From: Acinetobacter lanii
GTDB taxonomy: Bacteria; Pseudomonadota; Gammaproteobacteria; Pseudomonadales; Moraxellaceae
Reading direction: 5' to 3'
Length of the DNA stretch: 64,000 nt
NCBI RefSeq assembly: GCF_011578285.1
Contig: NZ_CP049916.1
Location: 3,162,001 to 3,226,000 of the forward strand
Of the stretch, positions 38,264-48,876 are shown piece by piece. Below the pieces are notes generated by a model that searched no databases, was not told the DNA's origin, and saw nothing but the letters and a program-made list of their open reading frames with translations. Numbering within the stretch: position 1 is the first letter of the stretch; each line of letters begins with the position of its first letter. Position numbers and translations under genes: made by a program.

Positions 38264-38806
38264 ATGTCGAAAAAAGCCTTATTTATTACCTCGAACCAAG
38301 GCATAGAACAGGATGAACTGATTAAACCCTTTGAATTTTTGCAGTCTAAAGGGATTGAGGTGATTCATGCCGCCGAAAAAAATGAAGATGTACAAACGGT
38401 AAAGTCCGATAAAGAACCTGCCAGTAAACGCACCCCACATACCAGTTTGGCTCAAGTCGCATATCAGGATTACGACATTTTGGTCATTCCGGGTGGCACG
38501 GTAAATGCGGATACCCTACGCATCAATACCGACGCACAAAAAATCATTCAGTACTTCACTGACAACCATAAACCCATTGCGGCCATTTGCCATGCGCCTT
38601 GGGTGCTGATTAATGCAGAACGCATCAAAGATAAAAACTTAACTTCCTATCACAGCATTCGATTGGACTTGGAAAATGCCGGTGGAAAATGGGTGGATGA
38701 AGAAGTCCATCGTTGCAATACCAATGATTGGCCACTGATTACTTCACGTAATCCAGATGATATTCCGGCCTTTAATCAGGCCATTCTTAAAGAATTAGGC
38801 ACTTAA
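38264..38806 (+). CDS. DJ-1/PfpI family protein
   Basis: Class I glutamine amidotransferase-like fold, of the YhbO/PfpI (general stress protein 18) type, linked in other bacteria to deglycation and stress survival. 180 residues from MSKKALF, with AAAGG before ATG 38264. It has the family nucleophile Cys109-His110 in AAICHAPWVLI, the acidic Glu near residue 20, the strand VIPGGTVNADTLR and the C-terminal TSRNPDDIPAF. It lies directly upstream of the candidate Rsm RNA, which has its own promoter. Confidence 0.9.
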   Translation: MSKKALFITSNQGIEQDELIKPFEFLQSKGIEVIHAAEKNEDVQTVKSDKEPASKRTPHTSLAQVAYQDYDILVIPGGTVNADTLRINTDAQKIIQYFTDNHKPIAAICHAPWVLINAERIKDKNLTSYHSIRLDLENAGGKWVDEEVHRCNTNDWPLITSRNPDDIPAFNQAILKELGT

Positions 38807-38813
38807 GTCATTT

Positions 38814-38881
38814 TGTACGTATATGCTTACATGCATAGCTACTTTTAGCTGCTTTTCGGACTTCGATTTTTTTACTATTCT
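38814..38881 (+). promoter_or_regulatory. GacA-type upstream activating sequence and promoter of the small RNA
   Basis: TGTACG-TATATG-CTTACA (38814-38831) differs at one base from the GacA-binding element TGTAAG-N6-CTTACA found before rsmX, rsmY and rsmZ in Pseudomonas. TATTCT (38876-38881) is a fair -10 box; the -35 region is poor, as expected for an activator-dependent promoter. The centre of the element lies about 65 bases before the predicted start, as in Pseudomonas. Confidence 0.65.
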
Positions 38882-38887
38882 TTAATC

Positions 38888-39020
38888 ATCAGGAGACAGG
38901 AAGTTTCCCAAACAGAAAACAACAATAAAACGTTTGAGCACCAGGAGCGTGAGATTAGACAGGAGTCAAATCTAACCAACCGATACGAAGAAAAGCCCAT
39001 CAGGAAGATGGGCTTTTCTT
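38888..39020 (+). ncRNA. RsmX/Y/Z-like CsrA-binding small RNA (candidate)
   Basis: About 130 bases with no coding frame, ending in a strong terminator. Five AGGA motifs, each inside CAGGA, sit at 38891, 38898, 38943, 38961 and 39002. At least three fall in predicted loops: GGAGA/TTTCC enclosing CAGGAAG (38892-38908), AGATTAGAC/GTCAAATCT enclosing AGGA (38952-38973, one A.A mismatch) and the terminator loop AGGAA (39002-39006); a weaker three-pair stem CAC/GTG encloses CAGGAGC (38939-38951). Exposed GGA loops are the binding sites of CsrA/RsmA, and the size equals RsmX/Y/Z. By analogy it would sequester CsrA. The assignment is inference from pattern and promoter, not from homology search. Confidence 0.65.
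38988..39020. terminator. Terminator of the small RNA, bidirectional
   Basis: Stem AAAAGCCCATC/GATGGGCTTTT with loop AGGAA, then T-run. It can also end the convergent ankyrin gene. Confidence 0.85.
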
Positions 39021-39071: not shown

Positions 39072-39383
39072 TTATAGTGATTTTAAGTAATCTACCACTG
39101 CACTATTACCTGCCATTTCAGCAAGTTGTAATGCCGTATACTCGCCTTCGTAAGCGACATTTGCACCTTTCGCTACAAGTAACTTTACAACCTCTAAATT
39201 GTCGTTTTCAGCAGCCGCTTGGAGTGCACTATAGCCTTCGTCATCGGTTTGATTGACGTCTATACCTTGCGCTAAAAGTTTTTCAACTTCTTCGACTTCA
39301 CCAAGGGATGCCCAGTACACAAGTTCAGGAAGATGCAGTTCTTCATCATCTTCAGGGATTGGGGAGAATGAGTTGAGTTTCAT
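39072..39383 (-). CDS. Ankyrin repeat protein
   Basis: 103 residues; acidic N-terminus (PEDDEELHLPE) followed by about two and a half ankyrin repeats: ELVYWASLGEVEEVEKLLAQGIDVNQ, GYSALQAAAENDNLEVVKLLVAKGANV and YTALQLAEMAGNSAVVDYL. A small protein-interaction module; partners unknown. The former neighbour upstream is the gene now broken by the insertion element. Confidence 0.85.
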   Translation of the reverse strand: MKLNSFSPIPEDDEELHLPELVYWASLGEVEEVEKLLAQGIDVNQTDDEGYSALQAAAENDNLEVVKLLVAKGANVAYEGEYTALQLAEMAGNSAVVDYLKSL

Positions 39384-39718: not shown

Positions 39719-40691
39719 ACCCGAATCCTGTTTAAGCCGATGACTCCATAATTTGAATTGTTGGCTTATTTTTATGGATCAGTTGATATGCACACAAGGA
39801 CGCGTAAATCCCTCCTAGAAATCCATGAACACTACGTGCTTTGCTTGTCACTAAATTGTACTGACCTTTCAATAAACTGAATAAAGTCTCTATCTTATTG
39901 CGCTGTTTTAAGTGATATTTATCTGACTCAGAAAGTTGTATAGCCTGCATATTTTTTCGATGATAGGTAATTAAATCAATGCCTTGCTCTTTTAATCTAA
40001 TCTTCAGTTCTTGACTAATATAGCCACGATCTCCATACAACTTTGCTTCCATCTCTTTAACGAGTCTCTCAACCATTTTTATGTCAGCAACATGTCCATT
40101 CGATAAAGCAGAACAAGCAATTTCCCCAAATTGGTTCATTGCAATGTGCAATTTACAGCCATAAAACCAGCCCATTGAACTTTTACCACGAGATGCAATT
40201 TTAGCTAAAGATTTATGGCGTTGAATACGTTGATTTTTACAAACTGGCAAAAGCGTTGAATCAATCCATAAATATTGTGTACCTTGGTCTTTCATCAGCA
40301 CCACATGTAAAGCGTGTAGAGCCAATTGGTGCATATTGATCAGATGAATCATCCTTTGATAGCAAGGCAAATACTTAAATAAATGGTTTTTATCTTCTTT
40401 TAACCAAATGAAAAATGCTTTGAAATTATTGAAATGAGAACATTTATACCAGATCGCGATAAAACAGATTTCTGAAATGGTTAAATGAGCAGTTCTGATT
40501 CTTAAGGAACGATTACTTTGCTTAAGAAAATTCCAATAGGTTGCTTCAAATTTGAGAAAGAAATCATCAATTAAGCAGAATAATTCGGTACTATTAAACA
40601 TCGGGACTAGAGTTGTGAGTTTTGTGTGGTAACTCAACTGATGGCTCTAGTCCTTCTATTTTTCAAGTCAATTTTTATCCGCGATTCAGGT
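39719..40691 (-). mobile_element. IS982-family insertion sequence, 973 bp
   Basis: Ends in imperfect inverted repeats: left ACCCGAATCC, right (minus strand) ACCTGAATCG. It holds one full transposase gene on the minus strand, is flanked by TAAATA duplications, and its length is normal for IS982 elements of Acinetobacter. No partner copy is in the window. The individual IS name is not assigned. Confidence 0.88.
39732..40601 (-). CDS. IS982-family transposase
   Basis: DDE transposase of the insertion sequence. 289 residues from MFNSTELFCLIDDF; a TTG frame 36 bases upstream is not preferred. The catalytic triad is apparent: Asp in YLWIDSTLLPVC (about 114), Asp in LYGDRGYISQ (about 191) and Glu in RNKIETLFSLLKGQY (about 238), the last two as in the family. 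The reading frame is complete, so the element may still be active. Confidence 0.9.
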   Translation of the reverse strand: MFNSTELFCLIDDFFLKFEATYWNFLKQSNRSLRIRTAHLTISEICFIAIWYKCSHFNNFKAFFIWLKEDKNHLFKYLPCYQRMIHLINMHQLALHALHVVLMKDQGTQYLWIDSTLLPVCKNQRIQRHKSLAKIASRGKSSMGWFYGCKLHIAMNQFGEIACSALSNGHVADIKMVERLVKEMEAKLYGDRGYISQELKIRLKEQGIDLITYHRKNMQAIQLSESDKYHLKQRNKIETLFSLLKGQYNLVTSKARSVHGFLGGIYASLCAYQLIHKNKPTIQIMESSA

Positions 40692-43396: not shown

Positions 43397-43406
43397 GAAT
43401 TAATGA

Positions 43407-43520
43407 GCTGGCGATGACTTACTCTCACATGGGTAACCCCACACTACCATCAGCGCTAAGAGGTTTCACTTCTGAGTTCGGGAAGGGATCAGGTGGTTCA
43501 CTCTTGCTATTGTCGCCAGC
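43407..43520 (-). rRNA. rrf: 5S ribosomal RNA
   Basis: Minus-strand sequence begins GCTGGCGAC and ends GTCATCGCCAGC, pairing to form helix I. Internal CCCGAACTCAGAAGTGAAAC is the conserved loop region. 114 bases, normal. Confidence 0.95.
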
Positions 43521-43699
43521 ACAACTGTTTATGGACTTGTTCGGGTCTTATCTAACTGCTTTGCAGTGTTTGCCGTACTTTGTACCAAATGAGTTATTAA
43601 CAGAAGTACTTGAATTGAATTAAGTTTGCTTAGTTTAACTAGCTTGATCACTAAATCAAGATGTTTTGCAGAATATCGAATCAACTGATGCTTTATACA

Positions 43700-43721
43700 A
43701 CAACTGTTTGGGTGTTGTATA

Positions 43722-43727
<6 letters not shown>
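43700..43727. repeat. 23S processing stem, 3' side
   Basis: CAACTGTTTGGGTGTTGTATAGTCAAG pairs, with two mismatches or gaps, with the matching stretch at 46607-46632. Together they close the long RNase III stem around 23S rRNA. Confidence 0.8.
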
Positions 43728-46606
<2,879 letters not shown>

Positions 46607-46612
<6 letters not shown>

Positions 46613-46632
46613 TATACAACCCCAAACAGTCG
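46607..46632. repeat. 23S processing stem, 5' side
   Basis: CTTGACTATACAACCCCAAACAGTCG, complementary to the stretch at 43700-43727; the RNase III processing stem of 23S rRNA. Confidence 0.8.
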
Positions 46633-47052
46633 TTAACCCTTACAAGCGGGGTTAGCAACAGAACATGTCTTTCAACACGCTCATACAGTTGGCGTCTGTG
46701 CATTTAAGCACTGTACAGCTTCAATTAGATTCATATACCAAAACGCTTGATTCAGTTAATTTCGCTAGTTCTCATTTCAATCACTTCAACAATCAATCTT
46801 ACGATTTCTTGTTTCCGCTTTTGGAATAAGTTAAACAATTAATTTCAACTCAAATATATTCTGTTAATGATTGTCTACGTCCTCATCGGAGCGTAGCAAC
46901 TGTGATAAATCACAGAAGTTAACAAGACGCGCATTATACGCAGTTTCTTACTAATTTCTATAATCTAACCAACTGATCGCTTACTCAGTGCTCGAAGTAT
47001 AACTTCTCGCTTAAATTTTAAGGAAAAGCAGTGCTTTTCTGATCTTAAAATT

Positions 47053-47128
47053 TGGTGGAGACTAGGAGAGTCGAACTCCTGACCTCCTGCGTGCAAAGCA
47101 GGCGCTCTACCAACTAAGCTAAGTCCCC
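47053..47128 (-). tRNA. tRNA-Ala (TGC)
   Basis: 76 bases in the 16S-23S spacer. Acceptor GGGGACT/AGTCTCC, D-loop AGTTGGTAGAGC, anticodon loop TTTGCAC with anticodon TGC, TTCGACTC T-loop and encoded CCA. Confidence 0.96.
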
Positions 47129-47201
47129 AGCTTATCATATAGATTCGATATATCTTCTGTTCTGTTCGCTTCAGTATTTTCATACTGCGTTAGTCAGATA
47201 G

Positions 47202-47278
<77 letters not shown>

Positions 47279-47339
47279 TCAGATACATCTTCATGAAGAA
47301 CAACTTGTTGTGGATTCTTACCGATCGTCAATCTTTCGT

Positions 47340-48876
<1,537 letters not shown>

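Follow-up and report, generated by a model that had tools for sequence, protein, structure and literature searches.

A predicted GacA-activated CsrA sponge RNA of Acinetobacter lanii belongs to a genus-wide family with copies on plasmids

A segment of about 134 nt between two genes of Acinetobacter lanii very probably encodes a sponge RNA of the known Gac/Rsm kind, activated by GacA and titrating CsrA; we put the probability of this reading at roughly 0.9. The segment lies in the window, the stretch of 64,000 nucleotides that was analysed (contig NZ_CP049916.1, positions 3,162,001 to 3,226,000). Coordinates are those of the window, except that genome positions carry the prefix C1. An earlier note had proposed a comparison of the locus across Acinetobacter, and we found the box, its spacing, the loops and the terminator kept throughout the genus. 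Together with the covariation of the hairpins and the presence of genes for CsrA, a GacA-like regulator and a GacS-like kinase, this conservation fits a GacA-activated CsrA sponge. The features of the locus and its two neighbours are the following.

38264 to 38806, + strand: DJ-1/PfpI family gene, the upstream neighbour, outside the RNA (open reading frame and annotation).
38814 to 38831, + strand: putative GacA-type activating box TGTACG-N6-CTTACA, an imperfect palindrome (sequence; homologues carry a box at the same place).
38876 to 38881, + strand: -10-like hexamer TATTCT (window sequence).
38887 to 39020, + strand: predicted sponge RNA, about 134 nt (match to covariance model R1 over 38884 to 39020, i.e., G000:C1:3200884-3201020, 130.7 bits; the window copy is one of the sequences used to build R1, so this score is not independent).
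38890 to 39005, + strand: five CAGGA motifs, at 38890, 38897, 38942, 38960 and 39001 (sequence).
38892 to 38908, + strand: hairpin 1, GGAGAC-AGGAA-GTTTCC, whose loop holds AGGA (fold, covariation, sequence).
38909 to 38936, + strand: hairpin 2, CAAAC/GTTTG enclosing the A-rich spacer AAAACAACAATAA (fold, alignment, covariation).
38939 to 38951, + strand: hairpin 3, short, CAC-CAGGAGC-GTG (covariation test only).
38952 to 38973, + strand: hairpin 4, AGATTAGAC-AGGA-GTCAAATCT (fold, covariation, RNAalifold).
38990 to 39018, + strand: terminator hairpin with an AGGAA loop (fold, covariation, RNAalifold, sequence).
39072 to 39383, - strand: ankyrin-repeat gene, the convergent downstream neighbour, outside the RNA (open reading frame and annotation).

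The anatomy described in the earlier note was recovered. The box reads TGTACG-TATATG-CTTACA and differs, as had been reported, by a single base from TGTAAG-N6-CTTACA. Judging from the position of TATTCT, transcription would start near 38887, and comparable hexamers stand at a roughly equal offset in many of the 46 box-bearing copies described below (judged by eye); the centre of the box lies about 65 bases upstream of this predicted start, in agreement with the distance first proposed. The five CAGGA motifs of the supposed non-coding segment were all located, and no open reading frame of at least 40 aa lies on the + strand within 38887-39007, while just two such frames overlap the RNA, a 57-aa frame on the - strand and a + strand frame whose start, at 39008, falls in the terminator. 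At least three motifs had been placed in predicted loops, and in the minimum-energy fold this is the case for those at 38897, 38960 and 39001, one of them in the terminator loop; the motif at 38942 lies in the loop of hairpin 3 and that at 38890 shares bases with the 5' arm of hairpin 1. More than three CAGGA per 135 bases occur at this locus alone when both strands of the whole window are scanned, and simulating the window 60 times with a first-order Markov model gave a maximum of 3, against 5 at the locus. The fold has an energy of -40.6 kcal/mol (z = -6.05), and none of 200 shuffles was equally stable. An automatic scan reported no promoter and no terminator at the locus: the 3' arm of the hairpin continues into TTTTCTTTA, leaving no unbroken T run, and the sigma-70 rule requires a -35 hexamer. 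The terminator of the earlier note is nevertheless borne out by the fold, covariation and RNAalifold. Beyond the ankyrin-repeat gene, the window contains a transposase gene with a DDE domain (39732-40637) and, on the - strand, an rRNA operon with two tRNAs (43406-48876).

The locus has relatives, found by BLASTN, in 24 of 58 genomes, and paralogues in the A. lanii genome itself. We selected 49 initial copies by the presence of the box and of at least three AGGA, and 46 were left after three unrelated ones had been removed by hand; dropping 14 near-duplicates by script and the odd L020, and shortening L041, gave an alignment (A1) of 31 sequences. The structure of the window copy pairs 91.0% of the cells of A1, against 32-43% for slid structures, a control that somewhat favours it since it was drawn from one of the aligned sequences. 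Two-sided changes occur in 24 of the 33 pairs, and not one of 500 shuffles reached the observed value for any of the five measures. The terminator hairpin has such changes in 9 of 11 pairs. Hairpin 3 pairs in 82.2% of cells, with two-sided changes in two of its three pairs, and is found neither in the minimum-energy fold nor in the RNAalifold consensus. The consensus that RNAalifold reached by itself is limited to hairpin 4 and the terminator (14 of its 16 pairs have two-sided changes), so hairpins 1 to 3 rest on the covariation test, the first two also on the fold; R1 was built from this smaller structure.

A1 has 20 invariant columns, of which 10 fall in CAGGA motifs and 5 in the spacer AAAACAACAATAA, which is unpaired. 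Four of the hairpins hold AGGA in the loop. The spacer (38914-38931 and homologues) reads as AAN triplets, which we take to be a possible Hfq distal-face site. The conservation of GGA loops, on which the earlier note had made its reading depend, holds for the aligned copies and breaks down in at least four family members that keep one AGGA. The latter are divergent (L181, L186, L211 and one of the two in L237; 79.6-83 bits with R1) and have a flawless box core; they could be decayed sponges or represent another use of the same promoter.

The family is widespread in Acinetobacter. R1 matched 115 of 119 genomes of the genus at E <= 1e-3 and 111 at E <= 1e-10, with 1-10 matches per positive genome, in large searches that ran with strict filters and therefore lose weak matches. 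An order-wide search of 293 genomes returned three at 1e-4, namely the genome under study, another Acinetobacter (G065) and a weak hit in G042 (8.7e-5), and ten listed genomes from other genera of Moraxellaceae gave no match. As far as sampled, the family is therefore nearly confined to Acinetobacter. An absence of CsrA elsewhere was considered as the cause and rejected: of 61 Moraxellaceae genomes, those of Acinetobacter included, 58 have CsrA, and so do all nine that were examined of the ten genomes without an R1 match. A pattern search that used the RNA body only also hit seven places in other taxa (four in Pseudoalteromonas and one each in Wohlfahrtiimonas, Verrucomicrobiales and Succinatimonas), which have at least four box mismatches and no R1 match and were taken as chance. 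A copy with a box (L211, 83 bits) lies on contig DQVJ01000133.1 of a Sulfurovum sp. MAG, probably a misplaced Acinetobacter contig. Matches in four contigs labelled 'Acinetobacter phage MD-2021a' (94-128 kb, two with four places each) were assumed to be host DNA and left unused. Within the genus, the window copy shares no neighbours with nine stretches of other species (two of A. baylyi and three of A. baumannii among them). Three or four copies sit within a few kb of each other in L167, L200, L213 and L203 (A. nosocomialis, A. pittii, A. lactucae and A. baylyi), and two stretches of A. baylyi DSM 14961 together contain at least four copies.

Since the 46 copies had been chosen by their box, its conservation was judged on the places found by the RNA body alone, of which there were at least 96 in at least 80 stretches of named genomes. 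We searched 95 to 45 bases before each match for TGTANG-N6-CNTACA, with at most one mismatch in the ten fixed positions. Among the matches listed, 83 of 96 places have the box, in every case 79-83 bases before ACAGGA, and these include two stretches of A. baylyi and three of A. baumannii. The 13 places without it comprise the seven chance matches and six in Acinetobacter (L182, which is too close to a contig end, L206, L207, L216, L220 and one in L237). The sequence between the box and the -10-like hexamer is poorly conserved among the more distant copies (by eye).

Conversely, we asked what follows the box wherever it occurs. The A. lanii genome (3.43 Mb) has six TGTANG-N6-CNTACA sites, and all precede segments with 4-9 GGA: four are family copies and two are RNAs of other types. 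The terminator rule is positive at five of them, and the sixth (2914623) has a hairpin without a T run. Six further genomes, picked mostly for completeness, added 33 sites, for a total of 39 in seven genomes. A terminator of <= -9 kcal/mol together with at least three ANGGA or CAGGA was found at 19 of the 39 sites and at 8 of 2989 background positions. A looser criterion (a terminator at offset 180-230 with at least three GGA, or at least six GGA, on one strand), set after inspection of the sites, captured 33 of 39 against 68 of 3961 random window positions; both backgrounds include coding positions and are not matched to intergenic ones. When sites are split by the variable positions of the box, the looser criterion captures 33 of the 35 without T and A there and none of the four others. 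R1 family members make up 19 of these 33 sites, and the rest include two recurrent other types, of one of which four sequences were aligned. A reversed control pattern occurs 4 times against 6 boxes in the genome under study and 19 times against 33 in the six others, and G034 has two boxes and five reversed-pattern sites. The number of boxes alone is only mildly unusual, and the evidence lies in their position.

The earlier note had seen in this locus the Gac-controlled antagonist of CsrA in its host. The function is supported by the conservation in the genus, the covariation and the CsrA, GacA-like and GacS-like genes, and the definite article has to go: the genome holds five family matches, four with a box and a fifth with a degenerate one, and two box-preceded RNAs of other types.

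C1:30205-30339, - strand: family copy (R1 match, 52 bases from the box).
C1:53238-53369, - strand: family copy (R1 match, 52 bases from the box).
C1:3200884-3201020, + strand: family copy of the window (R1 match, 52 bases from the box).
C1:3380211-3380345, + strand: family copy (R1 match, 52 bases from the box).
C1:1939347, + strand: degraded-looking family copy with two CAGGA and the box CGTAAG-N6-CCTACA (R1 match).
C1:328849, + strand: RNA of another type (L105) with an exact TGTAAG-N6-CTTACA and four GGA (box search, intergenic).
C1:2914623, - strand: RNA of another type (L106) with an exact TGTAAG-N6-CTTACA and nine GGA (box search, intergenic).

This genome thus probably has at least seven Gac-controlled CsrA sponges, with the window RNA among them. 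The copies starting at C1:30205 and C1:3380211 (L110 and L113) are alike in 211 of 215 bases, 80 upstream bases included, and each sits just past the 5S end of an rRNA operon. The 3' end of the L105 type, TTACAGCCGCTAAGCCTTGTAGTTTTGGGAGAGACTACA, is strongly conserved in several relatives.

The proteins of the circuit are encoded in the same genome. CsrA scores 118 bits against a cut-off of 73. The protein (L051, G000:C1:1126916) has 86 aa, and its first 57 residues are nearly identical to solved CsrA; as the match is limited to these, it has a C-terminal extension. The GacA-like regulator (C1:3153681-3154322, about 8 kb before the window) and the GacS-like hybrid kinase (C1:2818971-2821301) are clear best hits, although with 268.5 and 576.8 bits they stay below the curated cut-offs of 280 and 890. 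GacA falls below its cut-off in all 119 Acinetobacter genomes. In the genome under study, no sCache_4 domain (the BarA sensor domain) was found. GacA is present in 118 of the 119 genomes and the RNA in 111, so that their co-occurrence is uninformative, both being nearly universal; G136 has two RNA matches and no GacA match at 1e-55, and the eight genomes without an RNA match at 1e-10 all have GacA.

Several features that characterise Gac-controlled sponge RNAs are found at the locus: a non-coding intergenic RNA ending in an intrinsic terminator, in the size range of the class (roughly 100-400 nt), a GacA-type palindromic box upstream at a fixed distance, several GGA predicted, with the support of covariation, to be exposed in hairpin loops, and CsrA, GacA and GacS in one genome, the latter two by sub-cut-off matches. 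We infer transcription, GacA binding, CsrA binding and titration from these features. Phosphorylated GacA would switch on the promoter through the box at 38814-38831, and the segment 38887-39020 would be transcribed as a small RNA. Its hairpins would present AGGA in their loops, where CsrA dimers would bind and thereby be removed from their mRNA targets. Counting against this reading are the missing Rfam match, the sub-cut-off scores of GacA and GacS, the missing sCache_4, the single-AGGA copies, G136, the eight genomes without the RNA, the reversed-pattern counts and a motif that is CAGGA rather than ANGGA.

Other explanations have to be weighed against the sponge. The RNA could act mainly by Hfq-dependent base pairing with mRNAs, its GGA loops being incidental, and the five invariant columns of the AAN-reading spacer AAAACAACAATAA and the copies with a box and a single AGGA would be in line with this. 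Yet twice as many invariant columns belong to the CAGGA motifs, four hairpins have AGGA in their loops, and the box-preceded RNAs of other types have little in common with the window RNA except GGA and a terminator, which makes such a mode of action very unlikely as the main one. Even less probable, in our view, is that the window copy is a decaying, functionless duplicate and that the working sponges are other copies or types. The genome offers six more candidates, and the copy at C1:1939347 does look degraded; in the window copy, by contrast, five CAGGA are in place, the fold is stable and the box has a single mismatch. The least credible alternative starts from the position of the locus directly downstream of the DJ-1/PfpI gene on the same strand, and takes it as the 3' untranslated region and terminator of that gene, with no promoter of its own. 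A 3' untranslated region needs no GacA box, whereas the distance to the box is kept in most places found by the RNA body, and three other copies in this genome have it at the same distance next to different neighbours.

Copies of the family also occur on plasmids. A search with the window stretch found 79 plasmid records, all of Acinetobacter and at least three of them chromosome-sized, from which 17 (L242-L258) were picked for variety and examined, L242, L243 and L246 being nearly one copy. All 17 have a full-length R1 match (94-124 bits) and a box with 0-2 core mismatches. In 15 the box is preceded, at a distance of 248-268 bases and in a single orientation, by a pdif-like site (up to two of 22 positions deviating from the consensus); the others are L257 and L255, whose stretch starts 239 bases before the box. 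The stretch from the pdif-like site to the box is related in all 15, with a pairwise identity of 55-96% (median 64%, ends formed by site and box included), and in many contains a terminator-like repeat. The five copies in the A. lanii genome have no pdif-like site within about 1.5 kb. Next to the plasmid copies lie, among other genes, toxin-antitoxin pairs and, in one case, a carbapenemase gene. On balance, we favour the view that CsrA-sponge genes are mobile in Acinetobacter: plasmid copies with a GacA box would travel in pdif (XerC/XerD)-linked units, and an incoming plasmid would add CsrA decoys under the control of the host GacS/GacA. Term searches of the accessible text of PMC13141974, PMC6449649 and PMC9455709, and of the rest of the searched literature, found no mention of plasmid copies of the RNA.

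Sponges of this kind had been predicted for the genus. In the accessible text of PMC7366521, [RsmX, RsmY, RsmZ] are listed for A. baumannii, the brackets marking uncharacterised RNAs from genome inspection, with a reference to Kulkarni et al. 2006, and Table 2 of PMC5568370, as far as accessible, predicts two sites of RsmA-regulating sRNAs in Acinetobacter ADP1, with positions and probabilities. The ADP1 predictions concern the same genus and the same proposed function (PMC5568370, accessible part) and are likely members of the family of the window copy. According to the accessible parts of the respective papers, the effect of gacA or gacS loss in A. baylyi needs csrA, as established by genetics, with unnamed non-coding RNAs proposed as a model (PMC12455638), a CsrB-like RNA is drawn in A. 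baylyi with a citation of Kulkarni (PMC12442408), and CsrA is essential for A. baumannii on rich medium (PMC12802169). A term search for Rsm or GacA in the accessible text of two A. baumannii RNA interactome papers (PMC11472050, PMC12802169) gave none.

Given the earlier predictions for A. baylyi ADP1 and the listing for A. baumannii, the window locus is foreseen. What goes beyond these predictions and raises the interest is the genus-wide family, the near-exclusive box regulon suggested above and, above all, the plasmid copies. Neither the family nor such a regulon is mentioned in the searched literature, which lies outside subscription papers and supplements and where the loci may bear other names. 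For 111 of the 119 Acinetobacter genomes sampled, the family offers concrete, testable loci for the missing link between GacA/GacS and CsrA. Should the box control little else than such RNAs, the direct GacA regulon would become predictable from sequence. The plasmid copies would let mobile elements shift the CsrA balance of their host with an RNA of about 130 bases.

The closest parallels are RsmX, RsmY and RsmZ of Pseudomonas, which are of similar size, expose GGA in hairpin loops, end in a terminator and have a GacA-type box about 65 bases before their start. The scan with RsmX/Y/Z covariance models that the earlier note had suggested came out negative: the locus fits no Rfam family at the gathering score and, up to E 10, none of the RsmX, RsmY, PrrB/RsmZ, CsrB and CsrC models. 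The matches that do appear there (ohsC, Thr_leader and others) score far below the thresholds of their families, and the best one fits the terminator hairpin. The RNA would therefore function like these RNAs without being a sequence member of their families, and Rfam-based annotation will miss the Acinetobacter family. The likeness to RsmX/Y/Z extends to several paralogues per genome (PMC7366521, PMC7911923, accessible parts); the Acinetobacter family differs in having no match to their covariance models, in being nearly confined to its genus, and in its motif, CAGGA, where the accessible text of PMC7366521 names ANGGA for sponge RNAs. CsrB and CsrC of Escherichia coli have the same proposed action on CsrA. 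They carry CAGGA-type repeats, and CsrB is longer than the window RNA. The accessible text of PMC7366521 gives them 18 and 11 motifs, against five in the window RNA, which has no match to their models. On plasmids, the parallel is RsmQ, in that a plasmid carries part of the Csr/Rsm circuit of its host; RsmQ is a protein homologous to CsrA (PMC9928087, accessible part), whereas the Acinetobacter plasmids would carry a sponge RNA instead.
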